Part shown: positions 1,733-60,270 of the stretch, piece by piece
How positions within the stretch are numbered: the first letter of the stretch is position 1
How the letters are laid out: each line of letters opens with the position of its first letter
Assembly (NCBI GenBank): GCA_947561395.2
Contig: OX387193.1
Span: 806,001 to 870,000, forward strand
Origin: Buxus sempervirens
Lineage: Eukaryota; Streptophyta; Magnoliopsida; Buxales; Buxaceae
DNA: 64,000 bases
Reading direction: 5' to 3'
Made by a program: the position numbers and the translations under genes
Notes under the pieces: model-generated
What the model was told of the DNA's origin: nothing
The model's database searches: none
The model's input: the letters and a program-made list of their open reading frames with translations, nothing else

Positions 1733-1779
1733 AAGCGTAGGCAGATCTTGAATATAAAAAAAAAAAGCGTAGGCAGATC
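1733..1779 (+). repeat. Tail-only retroposon footprint a
   Basis: The 15-mer AAGCGTAGGCAGATC occurs at 1733-1747 and 1765-1779. The 17-bp insert between them, TTGAATATAAAAAAAAA, ends in an A-run against the second repeat. The second antimicrobial-peptide promoter, the paralogous site, lacks the duplication. The pattern is that of a target-primed insertion truncated almost to its tail. Confidence 0.6.
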
Positions 1780-2009
1780 AATGTAATGTGGGACCGACCA
1801 TGCCTAGGTTTTTACTTTGTTTTACAGGTCACGACATCTAATGGTGAAATATGCAAAGCAGGAATGCTAATAATAATCATAAAAAGATATGAGGATTAGC
1901 TGTAAACACTAGCTTACAAAATACATAGCTCTAGTTGATAGTGATATTTAGAATTGATAATCGCATGGAAAGGCCATGCACATCCAAAGACTATGCCTCC
2001 TTCGTTGCT

Positions 2010-2018
2010 TATAAATAG
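2010..2018 (+). promoter_or_regulatory. TATA box of the first antimicrobial-peptide copy
   Basis: TATAAATAG lies about 110 bp upstream of the ATG at 2121. The matching position of the second copy has TATAAACATG followed by the same GAGACCTGAGA stretch, so the core promoter was duplicated along with the gene. Confidence 0.65.
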
Positions 2019-2120
2019 AGACCTGAGAGGACAGAGTTCTACATCCCAAAGGCTCTGCATACGCAAAAGTCTTTTAAGTTAGTCTCATTTTTAGTATTTC
2101 GTTACAGTGGTATTGAAGGC

Positions 2121-2446
2121 ATGGCTCCCAACAAGTTCCTTACTAGTTTTGTGGTGATTCAGATTGTGATACTCATGGCAACCACAAGCAACCTCGCAAA
2201 TGCAAGTTCGTTCAAATCGTGGAATGGACAGGGTTGCGACACAAATTTTTCAGAGGAATACGGCCGGCAACTGCGGCTGCAATCCTATATATTCATGAGA
2301 ATGGCGCCTACGAAGTCAGTTACGATGGGCAAACTATAGAATTGTTCCAAAAGGCAGGGTGTGGAGGGGATGTGCTCACAACTTTTCTATCCAGTGTCAG
2401 GAATTGTAATTATTTTGCAGGGAAAAGCATCAAAATCCATTGCTAA
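2121..2446 (+). pseudogene. Broken MiAMP1-type antimicrobial peptide gene
   Basis: This is a close tandem relative of the intact gene at 3855-4172. It keeps the same 28-residue signal peptide (MAPNKFLTSF start, cleavage expected after LANA) and the same start of the mature domain (SSFKSW). It also keeps a recognisable second half of the domain ending KSIKIHC. The two halves no longer read in one frame, so the copy looks broken, with about one break, and should not yield the six-cysteine fold. The TATA box and leader are still well preserved, so it may be transcribed. The nearness to the intact copy suggests a recent tandem duplication. It is treated here only as a fossil of a defence peptide gene. 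Confidence 0.75.
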
Positions 2447-2455
2447 GGTCCACCA

Positions 2456-3498
2456 TATATAGATATAAATAACAAACTCTGCTTGCAATATGTTATGTAT
2501 CATGCAAGCAGAGAAGTGGTGCATAAATAAAGTGAATGTCCCTTGGGGTACGTGATTTGTAGTGGGTGACTGTGTGTATACATGCATTTAGCCTGATATG
2601 AAGTCTTTATGTCCTACAAAAAAGTGTCTTAGTTACTATATATATACTCGTATTGTTCTAACTAGCTTTTTGGATTTCATTACTTGAATGTCTTATGATT
2701 CACTTTGTTGTGAGTACTTCAATGAAACCGAGTGATCAAATTTCTCAATGTCAATTCTGTATCAGCTCTAATTGGTGGTATGACTTAAACATGTGTATGG
2801 TATAATCAGTTTTGTTGACCTTAAAACTGAAATCCAACCAAAACCAAATAGTTTTTGTATAGTATAAACCAACACCATACTGAAACCAATTAAGGACAAC
2901 CTCAAACCGACCGTAATACGTTTTGGTTTGGTTGTTAAAACCGAACGTTGCCATCCTTAAGAAGATTGAATTTTTTTTTTTTTTTTGTAGCAAAAGAAAA
3001 AAAAACCAAAAACAGAAAAAAAAGAAACTTTTGGAAGATTTTGATTGGTTCATAACCATTAAAAAAATTAATAAGACATGTGAACATTCCTCGCTATTGA
3101 ATTTCTTTTACTTCCATGAGCCTGTAAAAGCGTGTTGTACCGTGAAATGCTTTACATGGCAGCATCGAAGCAAAAACCAATCCAAATAATCATTGCAGAA
3201 GATTGAAAAGCACACGGATCATCTTTTGTGGACAATAACGAAGAGCAATTTTCAAGCAAATAAGCTTCACCGCGATGTTGAGTCTATTAAAGCTTTCGAT
3301 GACCTAGCTAATTAGCTATTAGTATTTTTGTTGAAATCATTTCGTCTATAATGCCATTTAGTAATTTTTATCTCGTCAATTCCTTATCTCCTTTGAAGCA
3401 GTTTTTTAAGGAATCAATCCTCAAATAATTGCTTCTCTTTTCAACCGCAATGCCAAAAAGACCCTAACTCAGTCCCATTTGAGTTTTCAATTTAACGA
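2456..3498. other. Spacer between the peptide genes, with repeat relics
   Basis: No gene is seen. Bases about 2790-2960 hold a diverged inverted-repeat-like sequence rich in AACCAAAACC/GGTTTTG words, ending in a GTTGCCATCCTT motif typical of hAT-like MITE ends; a related AAGGATGGCAATGG end appears at about 56043. A long T-run (about 2971-2987) and an A-rich stretch follow. From about 3480 the sequence matches the left end of the first duplication unit. Confidence 0.5.
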
Positions 3499-3788
3499 GT
3501 GGAGCAAGTCACAGTCAGATTGGTGGGAAACCAAAAGGACGAATAAAAACCGATTAAAGGATTTGTAGTATCTTTTTGCCGCTCCTAGATAGTGAAACGT
3601 TATTTATTTTTTCTTTTTTGGTTCAATGTGAGACAAGGCTGATCATTGTCGGGTGGGACCTATCCCGCCTAGGTTTTCACTTCGGTTCTGAGGCCACGAC
3701 ATATCCAATGGCGAAGTATGCAGAGCAAGAATACTAATAAACATTAGATGAGGATAAGCTGTAAGCATCATTACCTCCCTTCTTTGCC

Positions 3789-3796
3789 TATAAACA
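3789..3796 (+). promoter_or_regulatory. TATA box of the intact antimicrobial-peptide gene
   Basis: TATAAACA sits 66 bp upstream of the ATG at 3855 and is followed by a leader that aligns with that of the first copy (GAGACCTGAGA). Transcription would be expected to start about 30 bp downstream. Confidence 0.6.
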
Positions 3797-3854
3797 TGAG
3801 ACCTGAGAAGACGGAGTTTCTAGCATCATATTTGGTTACAGTTGTGTTGAAGGC

Positions 3855-4172
3855 ATGGCTCCCAATAAATTCCTTACCAGTTTTGTGGTGATTCAGATTG
3901 TGATGCTCATGGCAACCACAAGCAACCTTGCAAATGCAAGTTCGTTCAAATCGTGGGATGGACCGGGTTGCAACACAAATTTTTCAGAGGAATACAGCAT
4001 CTGCGGCTGCTCTGATCTTCATGAGAACGGTTCCTTTGAAGTCATCTACGATGGGCAAGCTATAAAAGTGTTCGAAAAGCCAGGGTGCCGAGGGGATGTG
4101 CTCGCAACCTATCGATCCAGTTTCAGGTTTTGTTTCCTTTTTTCGGGGAAAAGTATCTCAATCCAATGCTAA
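3855..4172 (+). CDS. MiAMP1-type six-cysteine antimicrobial peptide precursor
   Basis: A single-exon gene for a 105-residue secreted peptide. Residues 1-28 form a signal peptide (hydrophobic FVVIQIVMLMA, then LANA before the cleavage site). The mature part, about 77 residues from SSFKSWDG, has six cysteines in the MiAMP1 order: one in GPGC, two in ICGC, one in PGCRG, one in FRFC and the last as the C-terminal residue of SIQC. The Macadamia MiAMP1 prototype has a 76-residue mature beta-barrel with the same spacing and ends in IFIQC; it inhibits fungal growth in vitro. Secretion to the apoplast and a defence role are inferred from the family. The start is the first ATG after a TATA box 66 bp upstream. 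A broken tandem copy lies 1.7 kb upstream. Confidence 0.88.
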   Translation: MAPNKFLTSFVVIQIVMLMATTSNLANASSFKSWDGPGCNTNFSEEYSICGCSDLHENGSFEVIYDGQAIKVFEKPGCRGDVLATYRSSFRFCFLFSGKSISIQC

Positions 4173-4190
4173 ATCAATATGTTAATTATG

Positions 4191-4868
4191 TACCACGCAA
4201 GTAGAGAAGTGGGGCATCAATAAAGCCAATCTCCCTTCGGGTGATTTCTAGTGCGTGAATAAACGGATCCGTGCATGTAGCATGATATATATGAAGTCTC
4301 TCTTCTCATAAAAAGTATCTTTCTACATCCTCGTATTGTTTTAGTTTGCCTTTTGGATATCATTAGTTAAACCGTCATAACATTCAATTTCTTGTCAGTA
4401 CCTATTGAATTTATCTAACGTTTAAACTACAATTTTAGGCCGAAAAATCAAAATTAACAACTAAATATACAAATTCCGCAGCGGGGTTTTGTTCTCTCTC
4501 TCTTTTTAATAGTTTGGTTTTATAGAAAATTGGCCATGGCATCTACCGAATAGCATGCTACATAACTCTTTTTGCACGATGTGACACCCCCCACGCCATA
4601 GGGAATGCCGTACAAGATGAAACGGACAATTTTATTTTGTTTTGTTGTCAACCTCGAGACTTTACTTCCAACCTTTGATATTTGAAGAACTTAACAAAAA
4701 AATAAATTGGAAAGTTAGATATTTTAGTATAGGAAAAAAAATTTATAGGATATTGCCACTTACTGTTGCTTTTCATGCAACGACCGTAGTATGCTGCCAT
4801 GTATAGCATCAGCAATGACAGCTCCATTCAAAGGTGATAGATGATTTCAAACCGGCTGTAGGGCCAAA
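4191..4868. other. Intergenic, no gene seen
   Basis: AT-rich DNA with a short CT run (about 4494-4502). No open frame, tRNA or recognisable element is visible. Confidence 0.5.
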
Positions 4869-5222
4869 CAAGGTTTACAATTTCGATGCCGGTGGGCGTG
4901 CCACCCATCGGCTAAAACGAAATTTCGGTGGCACGCCTGAAACAGCGGAAAATTAAAAAGACAAAAAATGGGCAAAAATCGGTTTTTTTCCGGATTTTAG
5001 AGAAATTTCGTCAGCACGCCACTCCGATTCGCGTATAAAAAATAATTTTTTTCCGTTTCGTCCGTTTCGTTACGTTTCACTCGGCATGCCGCCCCATTTC
5101 GATGACAAATCGTCGAAATTTTGTCCAATCGCCGGCAATGCACCCCGAACGATTTCCCACAATAAAACGCATCGCCAAAGGTCCTGTACCGAAATTTCGG
5201 CGGCACGCCGTTGTAAACCTTG
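4869..5222. mobile_element. Small inverted-repeat element (hAT-like MITE candidate)
   Basis: CAAGGTTTACAA at 4869-4880 and its exact reverse complement at 5211-5222 bound a 354-bp element. The outside flanks GGGCCAAA (4861-4868) and GGGGCAAA (5223-5230) match at 7 of 8 bases, consistent with an 8-bp hAT target duplication. The interior repeats the words AAATTTCGGTGGCACGCC and GGCACGCCG in both orientations, so it can fold on itself. No transposase is encoded. Confidence 0.55.
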
Positions 5223-5864
5223 GGGGCAAAGTATAATATAAGACTTTAGAAAACCTTGTATATTAAAAAAACACAGGAAAAAAAAAAACTTAAGGGGCCC
5301 AACGATGCACGACCCATTTGAGCTGGAACCAACACGGACCACAAGCCTGGTAGCCTGACCGACGGCCTGTGCCTTAAGTGGGCCATACCGACCAATAGCA
5401 CACGAGCGGCCCAGATATGGTTTAAACCCAAAGCCAGTTGTGACAATGGCGCCGCACCCCACGTCAGAATTCGTAGATAGTGCGGTTCAGTAGTTCACTT
5501 GCTTACAATTCAACTCCTCAAAATGTTAAAAAAACCACCGACCTGATGAAGCTAGAATGCCGAAGGTAAACACCATGATGGGATATGATAGGGGCGGGAC
5601 ATTAGAGACGATTAATGGGTAATTTTGTGAATTCATACCGCACGCTCTGCCTCCCTCCTCAGCAGTCAGCTCTGAGCAGCTCGTGAATAGAATATTTTTT
5701 AAAAAGTGCCCCCGGTAATGTGATCTTGTTGGGCCGAGACTGTTGTTTGTTTACTAGTAAAATCAATCTCTGCAGTCTGCAACAGCAATGTTTGTTTCTT
5801 CCCCATAAAAAGCGACACCCAAATAAGAAGAGGAAGAAGAAGCTTAGCTGAGTCGAAGCTCTTG
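5223..5864. other. GALT31A upstream region
   Basis: Bases about 5290-5480 are a GC-richer block of unknown origin, without a gene. Bases about 5640-5864 should contain the promoter and leader of the downstream galactosyltransferase. No convincing TATA box could be fixed. Confidence 0.4.
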
Positions 5865-6145: not shown

Positions 6146-6176
<31 letters not shown>

Positions 6177-11534: not shown

Positions 11535-14311
11535 AACTTCTATGGGTTTGTTGTCACATATGCGTGCTTGTGGGTCGAAACCTTGTATTGATCACTGCCA
11601 TCTACCCCATTTTTGTCCAGTAGATTATTGGGGTATTGGTTCTATTGTAAATTGCATTTCTACATGGATTAATGCATATATTTCTCTTAATTGTTTGAAA
11701 ATTTCGGTTAAGTCTAAATTTTGAAGTGATAAGTAAAATTTATGACAACCGTGTGTTTTGTATCAGCCATTTCCTTCGGCTTCAAAATTTCATGACGTTT
11801 CCGCTTGAGATTGCTTCAGAAAAATTATCAAACAAAGATGGATTAAAATAAGTGAAAAAGACAAAAGGACAGAAGCTGTCATGCCATCCTTGCCAATGGA
11901 CTTCATCATTTGCAGTGAATATCATCAAGTTTTTTTTATTGAGCTTAGAATAAGAAAAATGATAAAATAGGAGGATTGGTTTTAGCCACATGGTTGATGC
12001 GTTTTAAACTGTGTTTGACCAAAGGAAAGGGATTCAATGGGCAATAAGTCTTACCACCTGTTGCTACATGTAAACAATGTCATATCAAGATTACTAATCC
12101 ATTCGTAGGCCATTTGATTCTCAAAATAATTACAACCGAAGGTCGGTTTCACGTCCAGGCCTTGCTAGTAAAACAATAGAGATAGATTGCAATAGAACTT
12201 ACAATTGAACAGAATAAGTTTGCAAATGGCAATAAGATTAACAAAACCATAACTAAATTCTGGTGAGTTGGAGAACTCTAGAACCTTACTAAAGCTCCAG
12301 TCCTCCACGTTCCCCCATCCAATGGTTTAAGAGAATGGGACATTGCTCCGTGCTGTACGATGAAACTCTTGAACCACTTCATAACTTCACAGAGAAGATT
12401 AATCAAGCCTTGGAAAGGTGCAGTGTGTCCTTGAGACAGTTTTTTGGAAGGTGTGTCCCATTTTTCCTGGTTGTAGTCATACTTTTCATGGAAGAAATAG
12501 AATTGTCTCTCTTAAAAGGCTTCCTCGGAGATCTAGAGAACTTAGGCCTGCAATAAACTCACCATCTAAACAATCTTAAACTTTAGACCCAAGAAACAGA
12601 ACTTCAAGGTTAAGTTAGTTTACAAAGCACTTGCCTCCTTTTAGGCACTCGGCTAAGAAAATCCTGTGTCTCTTTACAGGATTCCCTTCTGTCATTCTGA
12701 AGATGTCCCTGCACAGCAGAGGCAATCTACTGAATACAATTATAAAGACCACACACAAATTTATACAGATAAATAAACAAGTTTATTGTACCATTCATTA
12801 CTAATCAGTACTGGAGATTTGAAACAGAAAAAACTGGACCTAAATGGAACATGCATGCAGAATATAGAGAAATTCCAAACAATAATATGTGACTGTGTCA
12901 TAATCCAGAGTGGGTGCCAAAGCTTGTGACAAAATTTATTATTAGTGGAAAAACAAACATTAAGCTATTGCAAGGTTGTACCACACAAAAAAGCAACACT
13001 GAAAAGACCCATATGGCAGTAACAGCAACAGGAGTGGGGTTCGAGGACTATAGATCAACCAATTTAAAATCATATGCAGAAATTCTCCTTCAATAACCAT
13101 CTCATTTTTCTGATATAGTTATATTTAAGAACAGAAGGATGAGTTTTTATTAATGCAGTACAGTTCATAAAAAAAGGATCAAGCAACACATCAGCAAATG
13201 CATAAGGTCACACTGATAGCACATAAATTGGCTGTAGAATAAGTTATTAAAATTATGATCATAGAGATTACATCAAGATATACACATATGACGACACCAT
13301 AACTTTACCAAGAGACAATAATTACTAGTAGCATTTCTCAAGCTTAGGACTAGTGATTGAGATTCCCACCTAAATCAAATCCTTGTCTGATCAATTATCT
13401 GGTGAATAAAATGCCAATCACTTGGTAAAAAGCTGATAATGATGTCTTTACCTTCGAGAAAAAGGAAAAACAAAAGTTCGTTGTTTCACACAGAAAATTA
13501 CTTTGGTATAATCAATGCACCAGTAACCAAAGAGTTCAATTAGAGCTGGTGCCATGGACAACCTATATTCTACTCCAACCATAAAACAGAAAACAATTGT
13601 CTTGTCAAGATTGTAAAATTATAGGGAATAAAAGTATTTCTGCTCTAAATTCAATAGGCAGGACAGTGTACGACTGAAAATGTATAAAAGTTTCTGATTC
13701 TAGAAGCCCAGTCTTCTTAACAGTGCATGTGAATCAAGAGCCTCCTACAAATGGCTTTGAAATTGATCATATGGACACAGAAGAAACCAACCATTTACAA
13801 ATGAACACTTACAGCTTTAGAAGAAGCATAAAAGTTTCTGATTCTAGAAACGCAGTCTTCTTAACAGTGCATGTGAATCAAGATCCTCCCACAAATGGCT
13901 TTGAAATTGATCATATGACACAGAAGAAACCAACCATTTACAAATGAACACTTACAGCTTTAGAAGAACTTATATGATGTAGCACAGAAGTAATTTGGCT
14001 GCTGCTTGCATTGAAAACATATACTTCCAAAGGGGAAGATGTGAGGCCCTTAATCAACTTTTTGACTCAAAAGGTCACATGAAAAGGAACAGCTTCTAGA
14101 CTGCAAATCTTAATATACAAAATTTTGCCCTTTTAAGAAAAGACTGTAAATTCATATAAGAACTGGAAGATAAGGTTCGCCAGAGAAACTACAAAGAAAA
14201 AATCAAGTTAAAAAAATCTGATTAATTGGACCATCCCCTAAGTCCCTCATGCAGAAGTGAAATTTATATTCATAGCAATTTTTCATCTCGAAGGAAGCTG
14301 TTAACAGCTCC
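11535..14311. other. Gene-poor spacer
   Basis: No convincing coding region on either strand. The GALT31A 3' UTR must occupy the first few hundred bases. The only clear structure is the 144-bp tandem duplication at 13684-13967. Confidence 0.45.
13684..13967. repeat. Two-copy tandem repeat, 144-bp unit
   Basis: ATAAAAGTTTCTGATTCTAG begins at 13684 and again at 13828. The units run through the shared words ACAGTGCATGTGAATCAAGA, AAATTGATCATATG and CTTACAGCTTTAGAAGAA with only a few differences. No coding capacity is conserved between the copies. Confidence 0.85.
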
Positions 14312-14378: not shown

Positions 14379-14432
14379 AAACATTCTCTCCATAAACATT
14401 TATTAAAAAAAAAAAACATTCTCTCCATAAAC
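14379..14432 (+). repeat. Tail-only retroposon footprint b
   Basis: The 19-mer AAACATTCTCTCCATAAAC lies at 14379-14397 and 14414-14432. The 16-bp insert ATTTATTAAAAAAAAA ends in an A-run against the second repeat, as expected of a target-primed insertion reduced to its tail. Confidence 0.6.
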
Positions 14433-32401: not shown

Positions 32402-33710
32402 AGAAACCCGTGGCGTACCCGAAGCTTTTTAAGGGGAAGCACCATTGCTATTAAGCGAAAGCCCTTGAAGGTGTTATGATGTGAGTCTTTCTGATTAGTC
32501 TTTGTGTCTTGGAATTTCTATTCATTCTTTGCGTGGCGTTGGGATGTATCTTGTCGTGTTTATTTCGTCGCACTCTAATCAATTTATTATCTCTCCTCTT
32601 TCTTTGTATCAGACGGAATATTTGTGTGTGTTTTAAGTGGGATTCTCAGAATGTCTCACAAGCTTTCGTCATATGGAAGGTTTACCGCTCAAGATATAAA
32701 ATCTGGGTGGCACTTGGCAAATTCTTGTATTGTTTCTCTTTTTGATCAACGACGGAAATCTTTATTTTTTTTATATTTGATAAATGTAACGGAAGATATG
32801 TTGGCTCTAATAAGGAATCTGATATTAAAGACCCGATGCCGTGATTGTTGCATTTCTTAACCCTTATGTGGGCTGCCAAGGTCTGGTAAATCAGTATAAA
32901 GTTTGGGGTTTTTTAGGGAGTTATGGTAAATGATGTTAATTTCCCCCAAGTAAAAGGCAAATACAACTCCATGCGAAGTTCATCTGCACGCTTTGTTTGG
33001 GCAAAAAAGAGCCATATTTATTTCCTTGTTAGATGGGTGGCAGCTTGTAAGATTAGGCTGTCTACAAGGTCAAAGGAATATCTTACAAGGAAGTTCAGCC
33101 TATATTATTCGATTTCGGCCGGTTTCTTCGGTGCCAAGGAGATGCATTGTGCAATTCAGTTCATAAAGATTTCACTTACAACCCACCGTTTGATTTGACC
33201 CCTCTAAACAAGTCTTATTTTCGCTAGGTTAGCAATCAGCACGGTATTTTTAGTAGCTGATTTCTAAGACGTGATTAGGTCATCGGTGTGGATTATGACA
33301 TCTGGTAGTATCATGATGCCCCCCATCCTCTCATACGCCCTCCTACAATTTTACTGCACCAACAGTTCGCCTCCACGTACAACATCGTCAACCAACACTA
33401 ATGCCTTGTTTGAACATTTTTAATTGAAAAAAAAAACTCAAAATAGAGAAACCCAAGTCGTCTTCAACAGCAGAGTTGGGTTAGCAGTAACAAAACAGAT
33501 ATAGACAAAAATGAAAGATATAAACATTGAACACATCTAGATTCAAGAATTGTAACTTCGAATCTCATCTTAAAAGAACTCAAAAATGTGAAGAAAATAG
33601 GGTTAGGTTTTAAGATTTTGAAAAGACATAGAAACTAAAACTCGTTCCTACAATCTCTCTTTGTTGGAGGAGAGGGTGCAAACCCTTTCCCTTATGTTTT
33701 TTATACTAAG

Positions 33711-33976
33711 AGGTTTTTTGCAGGTCCAATTTTGCCTTTTTAAAGTAGTGGAGGAGACAACTTTATTTTATTTTATTTAGGTTTTTTTTTAGTTTAGAAA
33801 TGCTAAGGTGAAGTTTTACCCTTTCGTTTTTTATTTTTTTTTGGTAGTGCCGTTTCGTTTTTTTATATTTATAGGTTTTTTGCAGGTCGACTTTTGCTTC
33901 TTCAAAGCGGAGAAGACAACTCGTTTTATTTTATTTAAGTTTTTTAGTTTAGAAATGTTAGGATAAAACTTTAACG
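33711..33976. repeat. Two-copy repeat, units 162 bp apart
   Basis: AGGTTTTTTGCAGGTC starts at 33711 and 33873. Both copies continue through GAGACAAC, TTTATTTTATTT and TTTAGTTTAGAAATG for about 105-110 bp. The spacing region contains the footprint at 33822-33866. Confidence 0.75.
33822..33866 (-). repeat. Tail-only retroposon footprint c
   Basis: TTTCGTTTTTTAT at 33822-33834 recurs at 33853-33866 with one extra T. The 18-bp insert begins with a T-run and ends GGTAGTGCCG, so on the minus strand it is a CACTACCAAAAAA-type tail. Because the site is itself T-rich this is one of the weaker cases. Confidence 0.4.
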
Positions 33977-34156
33977 TTGCCGTCATTTCTGTGGGATCCA
34001 TGAATACACGCTGCGCCCTCTCCTTGCTACAGTAAAAATATTGGAAATGGGCGTTCGAGAGGATGCGGGCTCATGATGATGGGGCAATTCAGATCCGGAT
34101 CTAGCTATATTGTCTATTTTTTTAATTTTCTTATTTTTTTCAGAGCTAAAGGAGAA

Positions 34157-34204
34157 AGGAAGCATATTCTTTTTTTTTTTGGTAGTCAGGAAGCATATTC
34201 TTTT
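34157..34204 (-). repeat. Tail-only retroposon footprint d
   Basis: The 17-mer AGGAAGCATATTCTTTT lies at 34157-34173 and 34188-34204. The 14-bp insert TTTTTTTGGTAGTC starts with the T-run. Read on the minus strand it is GACTACCAAAAAAA, matching the end of the SINE-like element at 55520. Confidence 0.65.
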
Positions 34205-34253
34205 GAACTTTATTTTTTTTTTTTTGGTAATGATATTCTTTTGAACTTTATTT
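34195..34253 (-). repeat. Tail-only retroposon footprint e
   Basis: A perfect 21-bp repeat (34195-34215 and 34233-34253, starting ATATTCTTTTGAAC) flanks a 17-bp insert of T-run plus GGTAATG. The minus-strand tail is CATTACCAAAAAAA. Its left repeat overlaps the right repeat of footprint d, so two insertions struck within about 40 bp. Confidence 0.65.
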
Positions 34254-36289: not shown

Positions 36290-37240
36290 TTCCACCTATA
36301 ATAAGACCTTAAGCTTAATTTATTTGAATGTTATAAAAAAATTAATGGGTGAAGCTTTTTGCGAGCAAGCTCTTGCTAGTTGAGTCTGAGCTTAATAAAG
36401 TCCAACGAATTCGAGCTCAGAAAATGTTTATGAGCTTGTGCGACGCTTTAATCCGTGCTCAAGTTTTTCAGGCACAAGCTGAGATGGGGATAGCACGAGT
36501 TGCCTTGGTCCATGTAGGCATGTACAGCTTCGCCTTAACCCTGAACGTTCATCGCGTGTGTTCTGCTTCGACAGAGCCACTTGCGTGTTAAATATCTCAG
36601 CGTTTCGCTTTTCGAACATCATCGTCAAGCTGTCGCTTCAATCTTGATTTAGATACCTAGATACGAGAGGTTCAAAAGCTGTCGCTTCAATCTTAATAAA
36701 CTTCCTTTCTCTCAAACCATTCGATTTAACGGACAAGAATTCCCACAATCAAAGCGGGAACCGTCTGCCCATCTCCAATTAACGTCCAAATAATTTTTAA
36801 CGGGCCAAGTGTAAAGCAAATTTTCTGAATCGACCATGGTAAGACTTTCATCGATCGGTAAGTGGTACTGTTCAAATGCTTGTATTGCGCCACCAAGACC
36901 GTAAGATCGGTATGGTGGCCGTCCTGATCTGTGATCTCTTCACTGCAACCGTCCTTCCGCAAAATCTACTTCAGCAGGTGAACTTCGCAACGATCAAGAA
37001 ATGTTCAATCGTGAGGTCTGTCTTCTTGCGAGACGAAGTTACAGCAGGGGCCTCCCATGACGTCCACCAGACTAATCAGAACCGCTGAATGTGCAATTTG
37101 TTGTCGTTTCTTACCACTTGATCAGAGAAGAAAGAAAACCTAAGCTGTCGCTCGCAAATAGTCTGCTCACATGTGGCCCACCCCGATATTTTTGAGCCGC
37201 GAACCGAGGTTCATGTGCAGTCCTTGACACCCAGAACGGT
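36290..37240. other. Upstream region of the first GBSSI gene
   Basis: No gene is seen. A 19-bp direct repeat AAGCTGTCGCTTCAATCTT (36627-36645 and 36676-36694) flanks a 30-bp insert without a clear A-run. The proximal promoter of the starch synthase gene should lie in the last few hundred bases. Confidence 0.45.
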
Positions 37241-37406: not shown

Positions 37407-37455
37407 GGTAAGCTTTTCTTCCTTTCCATAAAAAAGAAGGTAAGCTTTTCTTCCT
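37407..37455 (+). repeat. Tail-only footprint f, duplicating a splice donor
   Basis: The 17-mer GGTAAGCTTTTCTTCCT lies at 37407-37423 and 37439-37455 around a 15-bp insert TTCCATAAAAAAGAA. Each repeat contains a strong GTAAGC donor, so the GBSSI copy 1 leader exon has two candidate donors 32 bp apart. The expected acceptor is TTATCAG at 39846, 17 bases before the ATG. Confidence 0.6.
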
Positions 37456-43530: not shown

Positions 43531-44495
43531 GTGCAGCTGTGACTACTTTTCACATGTTTCTGCAAGGAGACGTATGAGTTCACTGCCATGCACTTCTATA
43601 AGCCTGACTCTTATCCTCTATACAACAAATCAACACTGTACCGGTTGCAAATAGAAGTGTGATGAACCAATAAATTCTACTGATGTAGCTTGCAAAAAAA
43701 TAATAATAATAATAGATTCTACTAATGTCGTGGTAGGGATCTGTAATACGAAAGCCTGGAGAACTATTTTCTAGTCTGGATGTTCCAACTTCAAGAAAAA
43801 GGTCTTTGTACTTGTGGTCTTCTTCTTCTTCTCGTGACGGCTGTGTATGGATGATTACTGTTTTAGCAGGAAGCTTCTGTGCCAAATTGAGATGAAAACC
43901 GAAGCGTTTTAATTTCTGTGTTTTTGGGCTTTGGTTTGCCTTTTGCGCTCACGCTTTTGGCCTAGAGCCAAACCAAAAAGCGTGGAATCGTGTACATAAA
44001 TCATAGTAGTACTGTTGATAGGCGGGGTTCTGGTTATAGTGATACTACGAAAATCTATCATGCCGGGCTTCTTATATCTAGGGGACTTCACCAAATAACC
44101 TGGCATCTGAAACCCAGAAACGAAGGCAAATACAAGTCTGAATTGATAACTTCAAGAGGCAAATTCAAGAAACTTACCTTTAAAATCGGCATGATGAACA
44201 CCATTGAAGTCTCTGCGTTTGCTCTCTGAAATACAAGCGACGGAAATTTAAATGATCCGAAACGATTGCATCACTTCCACGAGCCTTAAAGATTCAGCTA
44301 CGCTAAAGCGTCGTTTCTGACAACTGAACGATTATTGGCTCTTTGCGAGAGCATTTCTCATTCACAAACCAGTCTTTTCCCGCATATTCCTTCCTGTGCT
44401 TAAGGGCCTCGCGGCCCCCACCCTTTGGAATTATTAATCCTCCACTAGACTCTTTGAGGTGCGTAGGACTGGAGAGATCCGCTCAACCATTGTTC
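43531..44495. other. 3' UTR of GBSSI copy 1 and spacer
   Basis: No gene. The 3' UTR contains the tail-only footprint at 43670-43728. The remainder, to the G-box of copy 2, shows no recognisable element. Confidence 0.45.
43670..43728 (+). repeat. Tail-only retroposon footprint g, with (TAA)n tail
   Basis: ATAAATTCTACTGATGT (43670-43686) and ATAGATTCTACTAATGT (43712-43728) match at 15 of 17 bases. They flank a 25-bp insert, AGCTTGC followed by an A-run and (TAA) repeats. A TAA-repeat tail is typical of some LINEs. The mismatches suggest an older event than the others. It lies in the GBSSI copy 1 3' UTR. Confidence 0.5.
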
Positions 44496-44791: not shown

Positions 44792-46057
44792 GCAATCTAT
44801 TGGCCGAGATGGTATAACTCATGATGATCATAATCGTCATTATGAATCCATTTTAAAGATCACCACCGAAGTTTTTTGACCTACTGAATTTTCAAGTATG
44901 ATTTGTCTGTCCCTTGAGCAGTTACATTTGTTCTACCCATTTTGAATAGTGCCTACCCATGTCTCCCCAGATTGAATTTTCCCAAAATGAGGGCATTTTT
45001 TTAAGTGTTTTTTGAATGAGCTTTCAATTATCCATGTAGTTTCCATGGTGGTCAGGAAATAAGACTCTGTTAAGTTCGCTGTGTGAGTTCAAATCTTCTT
45101 GGAACCCTAGTTTTTTTTTTAATTGGAACCCTAGGTTGCATTTCGTCATGTATGCTTGTTGAGAAGTTGTCCTTAGCAACTTATTTTCATTTACAGCTTA
45201 CACAAGAACATATCCATTCAATGTTAACACACATAATAATAGCTTAAGAAAGTCTTTCAAAAGTTAAAAGCGCTTGTTATCATTCGAATGAACTCTCTTA
45301 ACTTTCCAAGCATTGAATCTCCGAAATCAACATTCCTAGCTTTTGCTTCTTAAACAATTTATTTTCTTCCTTTTTTTCTCTTCTGTTTTTAATATCGTTC
45401 AGTTCCACTAATTCAATTGGCATGGGAGATTTAAGACAGCATAAAGCACAACATGAAGTTATGAGTAGTTCCTTTGCAAATAAGTAATTGAATGGGTCAT
45501 GTTTTTAACAGTAATTTTCATTAAGCAGAATTACAATGTAGTTATTTCCTCTGATGCAATATTGGTATCACAAGGTCCCATTGATGAAAACACAAGTGCC
45601 CCAATGCTTTGCTTGAAATCCTTGGACAATGCAAGGTTAAATGTATGGATACTGGAAAAATAAAATTTCACAAAACAAATGTATTTATCAATCGATATTT
45701 TGATCATCATTTGATTTTCCTGAGAGAATTTTGATGTCCAGTCATGTCAATAAGTGATAGTTCAAGAATCATACAATTTGTTAGCATTTGTGATTGGTTA
45801 TATATATGCAATGCTTCATTTTAAGTTGGAAACATGAAAATGTAATTTTTGTGGCAAACATGAAGTTATAGAAAAACTTTTACATTGATGTGTTGAGGAA
45901 CCATAATGATCAGTTGTGGCATCTGTTATTCTTTATGAGAAGATTTTAATGTTATGTCTGATCACCCTACTCTTTCTAAACTAAAAGACACAACCAAAGC
46001 CAAATGCAAAGCAGAAAAGAAAATTTTACTTATTTGCTCTGCTTTTTTCTTTTTCAG
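44792..46057. other. Probable leader intron and upstream region of GBSSI copy 2
   Basis: AT-rich, without a gene. A leader intron ending at the acceptor TTTTTCAG (46057), ten bases before the ATG, is expected by analogy with copy 1. Its donor was not fixed. Footprint h (45099-45134) lies inside. Confidence 0.45.
45099..45134 (-). repeat. Tail-only retroposon footprint h
   Basis: TTGGAACCCTAG at 45099-45110 and 45123-45134 flanks the 12-bp insert TTTTTTTTTTAA, which is a pure A-tail on the minus strand. This is the shortest case. The 12-bp repeat alone would be weak evidence, but the polarity fits. Confidence 0.45.
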
Positions 46058-52788: not shown

Positions 52789-55342
52789 GGTTGCGTTTGG
52801 TAACGCTTTTGCTTTTTTGCTTCTAAAAGCAAGAAAACAAAAAAGCAATTTTATGCTTTTCGAAAGATCTTTTCTTGAAGCAAATGCGTTTGGTAAAATT
52901 TTGCTTTGCTTCTAAGAAGCAAAAAAGCATGTTTGGTAATTGCAGTAACATAGAAATTGCTTTTTGCATCCATAAAAGTATTGTACACAATTTATGTATT
53001 GTACTTAAAAATATACCCAAAAATATAAGTCCAATATTATAAAAGATTCATAAAATAGTCATTTAATTACATTCAAATAACTAAACACGTATCTAATATC
53101 ACTATGGTGCTAATCCATATGCACTAGCTAGTCTACGTGCAATTGAGTCTCTTAATTCTGACATCTCTTGTTGAGATCCAGCCGTCACATCAATCTCTAT
53201 GGGTTGTTCTAAACTTGAACCTGCTAGCTCATCTTCGTTCACTACTTTTATCGGCCATATAATGAATAGCTCATCCCGTATTTTTTCCCAGTCTTTCTAT
53301 AAAGTTCCTCTCTAATCTTTTTCCATCCACATTTCTTAAATGTTGTCATTAATCTATTTCCCTTCTTCATTTCGTCCACCTTCAATTCAATGAATATTGC
53401 CTCTTGATCTCCGTTCCAATTTGCCACCGACTCTTTGGCATCTTCAAAAGATATATTTGTAGTAGGAATGGAAAACATTTAATTGACAACGTTCTAAGGA
53501 TTAGAACAATAATTTATATATGCAAATAATTACAAAGATACAAAATAAAAATATAGCAAAATAAATTCAACACCCAGAATTGTGTTCGGATCATATTGTG
53601 CTTAAGTAAAACCATAAGAGAATGAGATAACATAACTTAAAAATTTTAAAGACACAGATAAACTATTTGAGTAAATAGAGAAAAGCTTCATAGTCTTGGA
53701 GGGTAAGGCTTTTGAAGGAAAAACAGTAGTGTAAAGGATGAAAGCTTACTGAGTGGCACAACAAAAAATGCAAGACAAACCCAATTCCAGACTGGATATA
53801 TTTCAAACATTATTTCAAATGAAGAAAGCCAATAAAACACCAGTATCATCTATCTAATTAAAATATATCTTTGCCATTCAAAATTTTAGCTATGGTCTTT
53901 GAATCTGTATGGGTTCATGCTGTAAATACGAAAAGTACACACAACTCCTTAGGTAGCAATCCACTCGACTGTGCTGCTTATATATATAATATACCACCTT
54001 TATAAACCTATGCTTTTTCTATAGAATGACTCGATTATTTTTTGATCTCATATAAGCCAATGAAAGTTCACCTACTTCTAATGATACCTGGGGCTTCTCA
54101 CATCTTAGGTTTTATCACATTGCTATATCTAGCATTGCTTCACTATACCACCTATCTAATCCTGGCTTGTGACCAACAAACATGTTCCAAGGAATCAAAT
54201 TCATCTGGTCAAATGTCTGTAGGCAGTATATGATAGGATACCAAAGACATTGTATTCTCTATTTTGGGAAAATTTGAACCAAAATTCCCAACAAAGAAAG
54301 CCACTAAAGCTCCAGACCATTTCATCTAACAAGAGTACATTGCCATTCAAAACATTAGTTGAATCCAGTTGGTTCCCACACCAAGTCATTACTTACTAAT
54401 CTATCCATCTAATAGAACAAGGTACAGGATTAGTTGCCTTCGAGTTCACTATTTTGTTGCTCTTTATTAATTGCTCAGAAGAACAAATGGGTGGGTTTAT
54501 GAGACCAGATTGAGTGACGAGCAGTAATAGTCATGGGACGGTGGCTTTATGAAACCAGATTTGTCCTTTTTATCAATGTTGCAGAGGAATAGGCAAAAGG
54601 ACAGTGAACGGCTGACCAGACATTGACGACATGTATTGTTCTCCATTTTGATTAAGCATGTATTGTTCTCCATGAAGGAGGAAAGGACTGTTACCGGGAC
54701 GTAAGCATATCCGAGGGATTAAGCATGCATTGTTCCATCAAAAGGTTGAAGATGTTACATCGAGGAGGGATTAAAAGGTTGAAGATGTCTATTATGGACG
54801 TAAGCATATCCCTCGGAGGGATTAAAAACAGGGATTGAAGATGTTAAAAACAGGGATTGAAGACAAAAAACAGGGATATGCTTTCATAAAGGGATTGTGA
54901 AAGCATATCCGAGGGATTAAGCATGTATTGTTGTCCATTTTGATGGAACAGAGAATCGTGACGGAAAAAAACAAAGATGTCTCTTGAACAGAGGAGACGA
55001 AGAAAGGGCTTACCTTCACCGGAGAAGACAACGTTGTCTCAAAGGAGTCACCAGAGAAGAGGCTCGGCGCCGGAGAAGAAGATGATCGGGTTGAAGGCAG
55101 CCGACTTCTGCGAAGAAGACAACCACGCTGCTATCGAGGGATATTGAAAGCAAAAAAGCAATTTTGTCGAAAAATTGAGAAGCAACATTTTGTTGCTTCT
55201 CATGAAAAGCAATAAAATTGCTTTTTTGCTTTCAATAAATTGCTTCTTGTGTGCGGAATCAAACGGTACTTTTGCTTTGAAAAGCAATTTGTTGCTTTCG
55301 AAAGCAAAAAAGTACTTCCGAAAAGCGTTACCAAACGCAGCC
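52789..55342 (-). mobile_element. PIF/Harbinger-type DNA transposon, internally deleted
   Basis: The terminal inverted repeats GGTTGCGTTTGGTAACGC and, reversed from the right end, GGCTGCGTTTGGTAACGC bound 2554 bp, flanked by GTA on both sides (52786-52788 and 55343-55345). Subterminal regions are built from repeated AAAAGCAA/TTGCTTTT words. On the minus strand it keeps part of a Myb/SANT-like open frame (53478-53248) and, directly after, a short transposase-like tail frame (about 53250-53102). No DDE catalytic core was found, so it is non-autonomous. A shorter relative lies at 38195-39306. Confidence 0.75.
53102..53478 (-). pseudogene. Myb/SANT-like ORF remnant and tail frame of the Harbinger element
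   Basis: The frame 53478-53248 reads MFSIPTTN...WNGDQEAIFIELKVDEMKKG then TTFKKCGWKKIREELYRKTG, the start of the Myb/SANT-like domain that PIF/Harbinger elements use as their second, DNA-binding protein. The domain stops early. It is followed in another frame by EDELAGSSLEQPIEIDVTAG and SELRDSIARRLASAYGLAP before a stop at 53102, which resembles an element-protein C-terminus. An internal deletion joining the two pieces is the simplest explanation. Confidence 0.55.
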
Positions 55343-56421
55343 GTAGTGCGGTGGTGACAGTCCGTTCACTCCAACTAAGGCGGGGATGTGTGGTAGCTAA
55401 CTAGCTATGGCTCAATATGAATATTTCACAGTAGGGAGGAAGCCACTATGATCATGCCTAGGGGGTTGGCCACATTGGTAGTCCCCTTCCTTCGTTTTTC
55501 TATTACCAAAAAAAAAAAAAAACTAATAACTAAACCAAACCAAACTAAAAAACCAATCGATCAACCAAACTGGACCAAATGTGTTTGATGTTGGTTGGCT
55601 TTGTTTGTTTTGGTTTGATTTGATTCAATTTATGGGTATATGCATTAGTTTCCCCCATTTTGGTGTAACAAATTTACAAATCTGAATTCAAATCAATTGT
55701 CTTGTCCAACATCTATAAATCTATACTATATATTACGAGAAGTGCTCCTTAGGAATCCTGCCAACTAAAATGTTTAAGTTTTCAAAACAGCCCTTATACA
55801 TCATTATGAAGATTTATTAATAAAAAGATACAATAATCAAAATTGCCTCAATTTTTTAATAATTTAATAATTAGTTACAAAACTGTTCCTCCCTTTCTTC
55901 ATACGTGTAGTATTGCATGTGCACCTTGCTAATAATGTTTGCGTAAATTGAAATTCCTTTTAGACCACATTGGGGATGGTATGGAGCGTGTTTCAAGGAT
56001 ATTATCACAAATATTAGATTGCTTCTACGGGAGACGAGTTTAAGGATGGCAATGGTTTGATTTTGGGAAAAACCAAAACTGAATTGACAAGTTTACAATG
56101 AAAACTAAAACTGAACCAAAACTGCTACGCTTTACCAATTTTGAAATTGAAATTGATTAAATTTATTTTCTTGAAACCAAAACCAAATCAAATCAAACCC
56201 AACGCCCTTTTCGATTCGAATAGATCCAGTTTTCATTATTTTATTGTGTTTAAACAAGAATATGCTAAGAAAAAACTACATCAAAAAAATTGAAGTACAA
56301 TAAAAATAAGAAATAAAGTGAAGTCTTTTGTTTAGCTAACCATCTAAGATCATTCAAGTTTAGAAAGGATATAGTTTCTCCTAACAATATTTTGATCGAA
56401 AAGCATATTCAATATACTTGT

Positions 56422-56553
56422 TGAGGGTGGCACTTGCTTTGGTGGTAAAGACCATGCTAGTAATAGCACAGGTCATGGGATCGTTTCCCACCCTCATCAA
56501 AAGTGTGTGTGAATCTCGGCCATGAGTCGGTCCCCTATCCCAAAAAAAGAAAA
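56422..56553 (+). mobile_element. tRNA-derived SINE
   Basis: A 132-bp element with an A box (TTGCTTTGGTGGTAAAG), a B-box-like GGTCATGGGATCGTTTCCC and a 3' end CCTATCCCAAAAAAAGAAAA. Flanks AATATACTTGT (56411-56421) and AATATACTCGT (from 56554) match at 10 of 11 bases as the target duplication. The tail matches the insert of the footprint at 57299-57312. Confidence 0.75.
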
Positions 56554-56978
56554 AATATACTCGTGGAAGGGACAATGAAATAGGTCAATTGTATTCAACT
56601 CAACTGTGGTAGTATAATACCCCAATTACACCAGTGACAATATTATCCACTTTGGACTATTGGGCCTCACAGTTTTGCTTCAAAAGACCTCATTTCTTGA
56701 AAGAGTAACAAGTCTACATATATGGACCTTTACTTTTTCTTCTCCCAAACAATATAGGATTCCATGATTTCATAATCCAGCCCCCCTTAAGGACTGAACA
56801 TCTCCGTGCAGTAACTTGCTAACCCTAGTAGCCTATCAGCCTCATTAACGTAAGCCCATCCTCATTAGAGCCTACCAACATAGACCATGTCACGAAACCT
56901 TAAAAGGGACGTGCTTAGGATAACTATCATGTGTATGGCTATCATTTAATGAGGTCAAGGCATAAGTAGAGGTGGCAA

Positions 56979-57025
56979 GTTCTCCTCATGATCTTTGAAA
57001 AAAAAAAAAGGTTCTCCTCATGATC
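56979..57025 (+). repeat. Tail-only retroposon footprint i
   Basis: GTTCTCCTCATGATC at 56979-56993 and 57011-57025, 15 bp perfect, flanks a 17-bp insert TTTGAAAAAAAAAAAAG-like. The TTTGAAAAAA tail equals the minus-strand end of the insertion at 262. Confidence 0.65.
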
Positions 57026-57282
57026 AACATAAAAAGAAATTTAAAAAAAGAAAATCAAGTCATTCAATATGCCTAAACCCATCATTAAGTCAAAATATGA
57101 ACCCAATGTAGATCGAAAACACAACCCAAAAAGGAAAAAAAAATCACCTAACTTTCAAAAACATCCATAAGATTAAATTTATATTTTTATCAATGATTCA
57201 AATTAACAAAGTAATAATTTGTACTAACCTTAACTTTTTCATAATAAAGTCACTAACTGAAAGACATGAAAATATCCAAAGT

Positions 57283-57328
57283 AACAAGAAGCTTGTACTG
57301 TTCCCAAAAAAAAACAAGAAGCTTGTAC
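57283..57328 (+). repeat. Tail-only retroposon footprint j
   Basis: AACAAGAAGCTTGTAC at 57283-57298 and 57313-57328, 16 bp perfect, flanks the 14-bp insert TGTTCCCAAAAAAA. Its TCCCAAAAAAA end equals the tail of the SINE at 56422-56553. Confidence 0.65.
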
Positions 57329-58039
57329 CGTACGTTATTTATGTTAAACACTATTTAAAGAAAAATATTGTATAGTTTATCAAAATGACGATGTTGAGAT
57401 GGATATTTCTCGTAGAACATAAAGAATTAATGTATCTTAATTGCCTAGGTATTGTTTTTATAAATAAAAAAAAAAGATAGAGAAAAATAGAATAAAGTGG
57501 TCTAGACTTAGCAAGTGAAGATTAAAGGACGATTGTGGAGAAGTGTTCATGACGGACTGTGAATAAAAGATACAAACAAGATAAGAAGAAAACCGAAAGG
57601 AATCATGATAGAATCAATTAAAATGTATTTAAATGTTAATCTATCAAAAAATGTAACGATTTAAATGTAAAGAGTGTTTAAATAATTTTCACATACTCGC
57701 TAGTCGCTAACACACACACCCAACGCGCCCCTGACAATGATAGCACTGCTGCAAACGGAAAGCAGGGACCCGAAACCGAAGACTTCCGTAACGGCCGTTC
57801 AGTTAACTCTAGCAATACTCTCTTGTATCGCCTCGGCTCCCGATTCCTCTGTTAACGACAAGCGTCAACGTTCTGCACAAATGGAAACATACTTTGACGG
57901 CAGATCTTGGCGCTGTTAAGTTACCACTGAACTCCACAAGCTTTTCTTACATCACTCTTTATCTGCTCGCTCTCTTTCTCTCTATCGCTCTCTTCCTACC
58001 GGGGTTTCGCTGCTCGATTTCTTCTGGTTGAAGGAAACC

Positions 58040-59474
58040 ATGGAGTTTTGTAGATTATGCTGTTCTTCCTTGCTCCTCATAATCTCAGGCAAGTTCTAGG
58101 CCTCTTTTCCCACTTCTCTGTTTTTTGCCCTTTTGAGTATTATATTTCAAGGTAAAATTAAATTGCTCATTTTCTGAGGCCAAGTTTTTACATTTGTGTA
58201 GGTTTTCTGTTTCTAGAATTGGTTGCTTCCGTCGGCATTAACTACGGCCGGATAGCGGACAACCTCCCTTCCCCGGAAAACGTCGTTCCGCTTCTCCGAT
58301 CTATTGGTGCCACTAGAGTAAAGCTCTACGATGCAGATTCCCGAGTGCTTCGAGCTTTTGCCAATACTGGCATTGCCTTCGTCGTTGCACTCGGAAATGA
58401 GTACCTAGCGAAGATGAGAGATCCAGAGAAAGCTTTATCTTGGGTGAAATCAAATGTTCAGCAATACTTGCCTGCAACGAATATCACCTGCATCACTATT
58501 GGAAATGAGGTTCTAACGTTCAACGACACATCTCTCACTGAAAACCTCCTGCCTGCGATGCAGAACGTGCACACAGCTGTTGTAAAACTAGGGTTAGACA
58601 AGCAGGTGAGCGTCACCACTGCGCACTCGTTGGCGGTGCTGGAGGCCTCGTATCCTCCGTCTGCCGGAGCTTTCCGTCGAGATCTGATCAAGCACATCTG
58701 TCCGATCTTAAATTTCCATGATAAGACTGGTTCATCTTTCCTCATTAATGCCTATCCTTACTTCGCATACAAGGCCAATCCGAAGCATGTCTCTCTTGAT
58801 TTCGTTCTCTTTCAACCCGGCCAAGGGGTTTTGGATCCGATCTCGAATCTTCACTACGACAACATGTTGTTCGCACAGATCGACGCCGTTTACGCCGCTC
58901 TGGCCTCGCTGGGATACAAGAAATTGCCCGTACAGATATCTGAGACTGGTTGGCCATCGAAAGGGGACGAAGACGAAACTGGAGCAACGCCGGAGAATGC
59001 AAAAAAGTATAACGGGAACCTAATCAAGCTGATTTCTCAGAAAAAAGGGACACCAATGAGGCCGAACTTCGATCTGAACATTTACGTCTTTGCTCTGTTC
59101 AATGAGAATATGAAGCCAGGACCGACTTCAGAGAGGAATTACGGATTGTTCAAGCCCGACGGAACGCCGGCATATCCACTCGGACTCACCGGCAACAGTG
59201 CCAAGAACACGACGATCAGTACCGGAGATGGGGAGGGCAATGCCAACACAACTTCGCCGCCGGCAAATTCATCAGCGGGATATTTATCCATCTCTTCTGC
59301 TTCTGTAAGTTGTGCCATTACATTTCCCACAAGTCACAATCTAATTGTGGATGGTGACAATTTTCTGTTATTTATCTTTTTTATTAATTTAGCTGTATTT
59401 AATCGCAGGATAAACGACGTTTTGCTGGTATTTTCTTGGGAGGATGCTTGAGTTGGTCTTTACTGTTCCTCTAA
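58040..59474 (+). CDS. Glucan endo-1,3-beta-glucosidase, GH17, probably GPI-anchored
   Basis: Hydrolyses beta-1,3-glucan such as callose at the cell surface. Exons 58040-58088, 58202-59304 and 59409-59474 give 405 residues. Residues 1-26 form a signal peptide (MEFCRLCCSSLLLIISGFLF) completed across intron 1. The GH17 barrel starts VGINYGRIADNLPSP. The acid/base Glu is E119 in TIGNEVL and the nucleophile is E264 in ISETGWPSKGD; GLFKPDGTPAYPLGL closes the domain. A Ser/Asn/Thr-rich linker follows. The short last exon adds DKRRFAGIFLGGCLSWSLLFL, a hydrophobic tail suited to GPI anchoring. There is no X8/CBM43 domain. The layout resembles plasmodesmal-type GH17 enzymes such as Arabidopsis At5g42100, but the location is inferred. 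Intron 1 requires a GC donor (TCAG|GCAAGT) to keep the frame. Reading through intron 2 yields a longer, unrelated tail. Confidence 0.92.
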
Positions 59475-60207
59475 ACGGTTAACGAGGAAAGACCATAAAG
59501 CAATTATCTGCCCCTTTTTTGTCGCCGAGAAAGCATGAACAAGAATATGAATGAGCTTCGTAGCTAGGGAAAGGTAAATTGAAATTTTATTCTTTACTTG
59601 TATTTCAAATCATGCAAATGGACTGTAGCGAAGGCCTTTTAAACCGTCGGTCCAGTGCTCGCTGGAGTTGTACCAGTATCTTTGTGGATGATGATATACA
59701 ACTTTTTGAGTGTAGGGTCTACTAACATGTGATTTTGCTTTACTTATTGCCTTTTGAGTTTGGACTGACTCATTCCAATGTATGTGCTTCTCTATTTTAT
59801 CTGCAGCACTTGCAGGTAAGAAATTGAGAGGTTTGGTAACTGTGAGACCCATCTCACCTTGTATCGGGAGATTTAGTAGTATTGGCATGTATCTTATTAC
59901 TACTGCTACTATTATTATTACCATTAACTGATTAGATTACCATTTGATCAAGCTCCATTAGATATCAGCGAGTTATTCGTTTCACTGGTTTTATTTTATT
60001 TTTTAAGGGTCATTAACTCACCTACACCAACTTAGCCCTCTCTTCAAATGGTGGTTGATGCGTATCCTATGACATTTTGATACTGGAAGTGTATTTTATT
60101 GTTGTGAAATTTCACGGTGTCAATTTAGTTTCTTTGGTTCTGATGATGACACGGACAGTACTCCACTGCTAGGGTACCATATATTTCAACCAACAACTTA
60201 ACAACTC

Positions 60208-60270
60208 TTGAGACAAAATACCTTTTTTCTTTTTCTTTTTTTTTGGGGTTAAGTTGAGACAAAACACCTT
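60208..60270 (-). repeat. Tail-only retroposon footprint k
   Basis: TTGAGACAAAATACCTT (60208-60224) and TTGAGACAAAACACCTT (60254-60270) match at 16 of 17 bases around a 29-bp insert. The insert is a T-rich run then GGGGTTAAG, which on the minus strand is CTTAACCCCAAAAAAAAAG, a tail resembling the TCCCAAAAA SINE end. Confidence 0.6.

Follow-up and report, generated by a model that had tools for sequence, protein, structure and literature searches.

Insertions that consist of essentially nothing but an A-run have been described in human disease genes, where four poly(A)-only ("pA") insertions are tabulated among the L1-type insertions (rows 121–124 of PMC4859970). According to these entries, their tails are 35–120 nt long, three of them are accompanied by kilobase deletions and have no target duplication, and one has a duplication of 6 bp. 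The nearest plant case is Sadhu of Arabidopsis, which, in the relevant passages of PMC2848041, is non-coding and polyadenylated, has target duplications of 7–16 bp starting with A as well as clean empty sites, and includes truncated copies described as consistent with abortive retrotransposition. Here, we describe, in a window of the boxwood Buxus sempervirens (the whole 64,000-nt stretch that was analyzed, C19:806001–870000) and then across the genome, a dense class of much smaller insertions, termed stubs, each of which consists of a leader of a few nucleotides and an A-run between two copies of its target. The stubs were probably made by target-primed reverse transcription through an L1-type long interspersed nuclear element (LINE) that copied the poly(A) tail and about 7 nt of an RNA and then stopped.

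The likeness to the human pA insertions lies in an insert that is essentially only an A-run (PMC4859970). However, the stubs number thousands, their A-runs are usually 6–19 nt, their duplications are mostly 12–23 bp, and they include a family with a 7-nt leader. With Sadhu they share the features listed above, but a full-length Sadhu element is about 900 bp long, and its truncated forms, as characterized in the same passages, retain alignable Sadhu sequence (PMC2848041). Plant 5′-truncated copies of L1-clade LINEs also carry poly(A) at the downstream duplication, have lost their 5′ end and occupy variable targets, but they keep a recognizable 3′ untranslated region (UTR), whereas the stubs keep about 7 nt, with no clear intermediate lengths among 40 places read. 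Literature searches, in which the bracketed term "poly(A)" proved unsearchable, turned up no dense, motif-defined class of stubs with full duplications, in plants or elsewhere.

Excess, polarity and empty sites

The assembly comprises 676.5 Mb in 247 contigs (C labels denote contigs, L labels fetched stretches, and window sites are named by their first position). The window was supplemented with 13 stretches of 10 kb (L002–L014), located at the 0.5-Mb position of the contig in 12 cases and at 1.0 Mb in one (the contig C2 measures just 0.95 Mb), to give 194 kb; the stretches were picked by place, neither randomly nor evenly. An exact scan of the window (arms of at least 11 nt, offsets of 22–60 nt) yielded 20 repeat pairs, compared with 0–2 in each of ten dinucleotide shuffles. 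A mismatch-tolerant scan of the 194 kb yielded 97 rows, many of them within tandem arrays, compared with a mean of 2.7 in three shuffles. The tandem arrays at L003:2335–3250 and L006:6549–9650, which crowd such scans, were set aside. When only isolated pairs were kept (insert of 4–30 nt, no more than one neighboring row inside 200 bp), 41 remained, of which 17 had an A or T run of at least 6 nt in the insert (nine in the window and eight in the sample; hereafter, the A class) and 24 did not. Such a run occurs in 3.5% of random windows of equal lengths, and the binomial tail for 17 of 41 is 1e-14. The eight A-class sites of the sample are confined to four of the 13 stretches (L005, L010, L011 and L014), and the target duplication measures 12–21 bp in all 17 sites.

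These sites have a polarity. By a strict rule that considers only the longest run, the A-run is nearer to the downstream repeat in 14 cases and to the upstream repeat in two, with one tie (one-sided P = 0.002). In the two exceptions (60208 and L014:6664) and in the tie (L005:3971), the A-rich tail is interrupted but still adjoins the repeat on the expected side, and the tail lies at the downstream duplication in 17 of 17 sites if such tails are counted whole. One further pair, L014:9473 (6-nt insert, four of them A), seemingly has the opposite polarity. The first-pass annotation of the window had stated that the A-run abuts the repeat in every case; this holds only if interrupted tails are counted whole, and not at 37407 and 56979, where three bases and one base, respectively, intervene. 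The strict rule replaced a reversed-sequence control (28 right, 19 "wrong"), which was discarded because short leaders combined with a slack of 4 caused the same stubs to be found again backwards.

Empty sites were sought within the same genome for 18 sites (ten in the window, with 34157 and 34195 queried as one, and eight in the sample), with the best 40 of 78 and the best 40 of 1,249 candidates scored. The stub at 33822 lies within a roughly 280-bp dispersed repeat (33690–34000) that has at least ten full-length relatives; all eight fetched copies (L039–L046, from at least ten spanning rows) lack the insert and have one target copy. Likewise, all four fetched paralogues of 1733 on contig C15 (L035–L038, from five rows) are empty exactly at the expected joint. 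Clean empty relatives were also found for L010:6056, at the same locus about 4 kb away, for L011:5487 and for L011:1802, bringing the number of sites with a clean empty counterpart to five. For L014:1375, there is a relative with a single target copy in which the adjacent stretch has diverged, and for 12 of the 18 sites no spanning relative was present among the scored candidates. Thus, wherever the ancestral state can be judged, it is the single-copy state: the paralogues carry one copy of the target and no insert, rather than the duplication without the insert.

All eleven window sites named in the first-pass annotation were recovered by direct reading as described there, with copies of 12–21 bp around inserts of 12–29 bp, except that eight rather than seven of the repeats are perfect (1733, 14379, 34157, 34195, 37407, 45099, 56979 and 57283). 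The imperfect ones are 60208, with one mismatch, 43670, with two, and 33822, with a 1-nt indel. The exact scan recovers eight of these sites in full and 60208 through an 11-bp core; 33822 and 43670 fall below the threshold of the mismatch scan and were inspected by eye. On the plus strand, the stub at 1733–1779 has the duplication AAGCGTAGGCAGATC at 1733–1747 and again at 1765–1779 around the insert TTGAATAT plus A9 (1748–1764), and that at 14379–14432 has a 19-bp duplication around ATTTATT plus A9 (14398–14413). Duplications of 17 bp flank TTCCAT followed by A6GAA (37424–37438) in the stub at 37407–37455 and, with the two mismatches, AGCTTGC followed by A7 and a (TAA)n-type tail (43687–43711, read by eye) in that at 43670–43728. 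At 56979–57025, a 15-bp duplication surrounds TTTG, A12 and a G (56994–57010), and at 57283–57328 one of 16 bp surrounds TGTTCCC plus A7 (57299–57312).

The remaining five stubs lie on the minus strand, and their inserts are given in that orientation. In the stub at 33822–33866, the insert ends with CACTACC and then an A9T-type tail, between duplications of about 14 bp that differ by the indel and one change. A perfect 17-bp duplication at 34157–34204 flanks GACTACC plus A7 (34174–34187); overlapping the target of this stub is another, at 34195–34253, with a perfect 21-bp duplication and the insert CATTACC plus A10 (34216–34232). The stub at 45099–45134 has a 12-bp duplication and TT plus A10 (45111–45122), and that at 60208–60270 has a 17-bp duplication and an insert in which CTTAACCCC and A9 are followed by an A-rich tail with interruptions (60225–60253). 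The pair at 34157–34253 and a double insertion in the fetched stretch L090 represent successive stubs with overlapping or identical targets, the same orientation and similar leaders; they may point to preferred target sites or to repeated use of one template. The window also contains two tandem duplications, at 13684–13968 (144-bp unit, 96% match) and 60630–60866 (86-bp unit, 89%).

The YTACC family and its target sites

Several of the leaders listed above end with YTACC. Across the genome, YTACC followed by A10 occurs 2,197 + 2,261 = 4,458 times, and the mirrored arrangement only 190 + 197 = 387 times, an 11.5-fold asymmetry and an excess of 4,071 copies. For RTACC plus A10, the corresponding numbers are 498 and 347. 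The asymmetry is weak compared with that of YTACC, so the pyrimidine matters and the motif is specific. The two outer bases are informative as well, since SAYTACC plus A10 (1,328 occurrences vs 42 mirrored) makes up 30% of the YTACC cases but 11% of the mirrored ones. TTATC plus A10, which is a LINE-type end, occurs 1,141 times compared with 331 mirrored.

Forty YTACC plus A10 places were read together with 250–300 nt upstream of each; all of them come from a single chromosome end (C1:0.36–10.06 Mb). Stubs were recognized at 12 of the first 20 places and at 15 of the second 20, two of the latter being weak (L081, with a repeat score of 9, and L091, with a score of 8). Accordingly, at 25 of the 40 places the repeat score is at least 12 and the insert is only a leader and an A-run, and with the two weak cases there are 27. 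A uniform recount (score of at least 12, insert of at most 30 nt) lists 23. This list wrongly includes the compound site L055, in which a 56-nt insert with two YTACC plus A runs lies between 14-bp repeats (by eye), and omits L053 and L061, which have exact repeats of 17 and 16 bp and were lost to a complexity filter, as well as L090, with two stubs at one target and hence a 47-nt insert; mended, the total is again 25. Among the other places, L050 and L069 are LINE copies, L059 lies in a local repeat, and nine lack a clear duplication. The duplications of the 27 stubs are mostly 12–23 bp, the weakest being 8 bp. Among 20 mirrored places, L097 and L104 have pairs with scores of 12–13 at 22 nt, which were found in both reading directions and therefore have no polarity (with a different slack, L104 came up in the right direction only), and L107, L108 and L109 have pairs at 54–88 nt.

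The leader is exactly 7 nt long in 19 of the 27 stubs; the others have 3, 5, 8, 9, 9, 15, 15 and 37 nt. The value of 37 reflects the double insertion in L090, and for those of 3 and 5 (L063 and L066) the end of the target possibly matches the leader. The A-run, by contrast, varies from 10 nt, the minimum imposed by the pattern, to 19 nt, while the leader is mostly constant. In the 7-mers preceding the A-run in 30 cases (the 27 stubs and three from the window), the outer base is C in 12, T in nine, G in eight and A in one, and the second base is A in 18, which gives the consensus SAYTACC. The 7-mer TGGACTACC followed by A9 occurs only 16 times in the genome, indicating that there is no conservation upstream of this 7-mer. 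At the unselected sites (the 11 of the window and the eight of the sample, n = 19, as opposed to the YTACC stubs, which were found by pattern), leaders other than YTACC have 2–9 nt. The idea that the leaders were copied from the flanking target was dropped after inspection by eye. All inserts are 11–29 nt long, except for those of L090 and L055, and contain no recognizable open reading frame or 3′ UTR. The earlier description of the inserts as near-pure tails missed that many of them belong to a YTACC(A)n family with a leader of mostly 7 nt.

If the first 10 Mb of C1 are typical, recognizable YTACC stubs would number about 2,800–3,000 genome-wide. Extrapolation of the density in the 194 kb (11 stubs in the window and eight in the sample, which is not random) would put the number of stubs of every kind in the tens of thousands.

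The targets of the YTACC stubs lean toward AA. At random sites next to an A-tail, the target copy would seem to start with A in 49% of cases and with AA in 24%; the observed values are 21 of 26 and 16 of 26 (P = 0.0008 and 4e-5, respectively), or 21 and 17 of 27 after the misread L055 is replaced by L053 and L061. Targets that start with A have been described for LINEs, short interspersed nuclear elements (SINEs) and, in the passages cited above, Sadhu (PMC2848041).

Candidate source elements

L1-type LINEs are abundant in the genome: a search with Pfam PF13966 (zf-RVT) gave 11,362 first-look candidates, of which the best 150 were scored, and a query with the zf-RVT LINE fragment from L050 gave 10,448, again with the best 150 scored. 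In eight dispersed LINE 3′ ends with long reading frames, TTACC (six) or TTACT (two) is located four nucleotides before the poly(A), with TATC or GATC between the motif and the A-run, which in L119 is just five A long. Among the LINE copies from the PF13966 search, most of the ends that were seen read GGACTYAYYTTCC(A)n. YTACC thus appears to be a motif of LINE 3′ ends, positioned four nucleotides upstream of where the poly(A) usually begins, whereas in the stubs it directly precedes the A-run. Two of the unselected stubs, L005:3971 and L014:6664, end with TTATC, like two of the eight LINEs. Recognition of the 3′ end by plant L1 elements is among the topics of the Ohshima review (PMC3747384).

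Searches by pattern and by LINE protein revealed no parent element that clearly ends with SAYTACC(A)n. When the 120 nt upstream of each of 320 A-runs were compared all against all, LINE ends, other LINE parts and local arrays emerged and no SINE family, and a search of the window alone against Rfam gave nothing at the gathering score. The inserts are too short to contain a head derived from tRNA, 5S or 7SL RNA or the polymerase III boxes of a SINE. A LINE-like hairpin followed after 35–65 nt by YTACC directly before an A-run was found, by exact pattern throughout the genome, at C8:5653160–5653236 and C1:52130983–52131055. These two places are candidate parents, and the former ends with CATTACC before the A-run.

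Many of the best 150 of the 11,362 LINE zf-RVT matches lie in one block per large contig, on fourteen contigs: C1:30.3–30.8M, C3:30.2–31.0M, C4:36.6–37.4M, C8:29.1–29.9M, C15:13.2–14.3M and C19:25.2–25.9M, with similar blocks on C6, C9, C10, C11, C12 (only three matches), C14, C21 and C22. The single block per contig looks as if the centromeres were rich in LINEs, and in this resembles the Celine LINEs described for poplar, tea and ash (PMC11288735).

Mechanism and alternative explanations

Target-primed reverse transcription that stopped early, as the first-pass annotation had proposed, is supported by the unequal polarity, the excess over shuffles and the single-copy empty paralogues. Under this mechanism, a LINE-type endonuclease/reverse transcriptase would nick the DNA, use the poly(A) tail of an RNA as the priming site and stop after copying this tail and no more than about 7 nt of unique 3′-terminal sequence, and a cut of the second strand with fill-in would produce the duplication of mostly 12–23 bp. 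The duplication, the polarity, the A-tail, the shared 3′-end motif, represented by thousands of SAYTACC-type ends, the A-starting targets and the empty sites would all be explained together. The copied strand would accordingly have been RNA, the enzyme that of an L1-type LINE, and the template of the YTACC family presumably an L1-type LINE RNA to which poly(A) was added at or close to YTACC.

Several observations weigh against this interpretation. Isolated pairs with a filler that lacks an A-run are more common in the same size range (24) than A-tailed ones (17). At the unselected sites, the target starts with A in 12 of 19 cases (P = 0.15) and with AA in eight of 19 (P = 0.06), neither of which is significant. 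T is not enriched before the nick, the preceding base being A in 5, C in 9, G in 6 and T in 6 of 26 rows; A before the target is under-counted because it merges with the tail. The A-side preference is therefore present, and the full TT/AAAA signature is absent. Only two LINE-like ends with the hairpin have YTACC directly before the A-run, and the related LINE copies L050 and L069 have their own end, about 14–18 nt more and then TTACC(A)n; the extra sequence is possibly a 3′ transduction or a stub that landed in the tail. Extension of a 3′ end by a few copied bases and untemplated A predicts the same polarity. Finally, the stop at 7 nt runs contrary to a random loss of processivity and is left unexplained by target-primed reverse transcription as such; either a fixed block would have to make the enzyme dissociate, or the RNA template would have to start at this point.

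With regard to this stop, we tentatively entertain the idea that the YTACC stubs are discrete "nano-retroposons", units made up of 7 nt and a poly(A) stretch whose 5′ boundary is defined, present at about 2,800–4,000 places with an A-run of at least 10 nt, and at still more when stubs with shorter tails or different leaders are included, rather than the random tail of LINE truncation. The reverse transcriptase might then be blocked at a fixed point 7 nt into the RNA, or the template RNA might start there. A variant that overlaps with early-stopping target-primed reverse transcription, and that we consider possible if somewhat doubtful, is that the stubs are ordinary, extremely 5′-truncated LINE or SINE copies ending with YTACC(A)n, the short end of a continuous range of lengths. 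Truncation at the 5′ end is usual for non-LTR (long terminal repeat) retroelements, as outlined in the cited parts of PMC2848041 and PMC4859970, and LINE-like 3′ ends in which YTACC adjoins the A-run do exist, at two places. However, the 40 places read, with their 27 stubs, contain no insert of at least 60 nt with a repeat score of at least 12 in both readings except L059 (72 nt), which lies in a local repeat; in L068, a repeat of 12 bp at a distance of 200 nt belongs to a locally repetitive stretch. The clustering of the leaders at 7 nt and the mere 16 occurrences of TGGACTACC plus A9 are also difficult to reconcile with this variant.

The template might alternatively be some other polyadenylated RNA, short or structured, on which the LINE reverse transcriptase acted in trans until it reached a structural block or the 5′ end of the RNA. 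The mechanism would be the same, and only the template would differ. We regard this as unlikely: the strict 7-nt length of 19 of the 27 leaders and the 2–9 nt of other-sequence leaders at the unselected sites, as if the stop were general, would fit such an RNA, but the Rfam search of the window identified none, and YTACC is present near the 3′ ends of LINEs.

A more radical departure is the repair of staggered breaks, in which the fill-in of overhangs would duplicate 12–20 bp and the filler would consist of copied bases with untemplated or slipped A, with no involvement of RNA or a LINE. Plant genomes contain tandem duplications of this repair type, with a short direct repeat around unrelated filler and an empty ancestral site, for which no A-tail polarity or shared 3′-end motif is expected. 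Such duplications seem to occur here, given that 24 of the 41 isolated pairs have non-A filler, which implies that another duplicating process is active in the same size range. Examples are the pairs at 188–234 (13-bp direct repeat, 21-bp filler) and 36627–36694 (19-bp direct repeat, 30-bp filler); further non-A pairs are, among others, 49161 in the window, L002:1248, L013:5452 and L014:8117. In another, L010:5663, the filler has GTTACC as its complement, and this pair is possibly a stub whose tail is very short. The non-A pairs may represent a separate, repair-like class for which duplication with filler is the source and break repair perhaps fits better than retroposition. The A-tailed class reported in the first-pass annotation is real, but the more common pairs with non-A filler had been overlooked. 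As an explanation of the A class itself, break repair appears improbable. The order of leader and A-run is also expected from a 3′ extension that ends with A, but a shared SAYTACC leader (1,328 vs 42 mirrored), A-runs of 10–19 nt and AA-starting targets are not predicted, and pairs with a score of at least 12 within 30 nt occur at just two of the 20 mirrored places (L097 and L104), without polarity. The A class, in turn, has both the polarity and the shared motif. Chance or tandem-repeat slippage can practically be dismissed: other scan pairs do sit in arrays (L003, L006, and 25183 and 54740–54836 in the window), but the 20 pairs compared with 0–2 in shuffles, the empty sites and the 11.5-fold asymmetry contradict this explanation.

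If early-stopping target-primed reverse transcription is the correct explanation, abortive events of this process would be permanently recorded in the B. sempervirens genome, at sites numbering in the thousands and perhaps in the tens of thousands. This record, invisible to homology-based annotation, would be a direct tally of failed LINE events, and the fixed stop at 7 nt would provide a clue to the early phase of LINE reverse transcription that cannot be obtained from full-length copies. The stubs would also steadily seed genes with short A-runs, that is, microsatellite starts, and with duplications of 12–20 bp, and their presence or absence would be a good phylogenetic marker.

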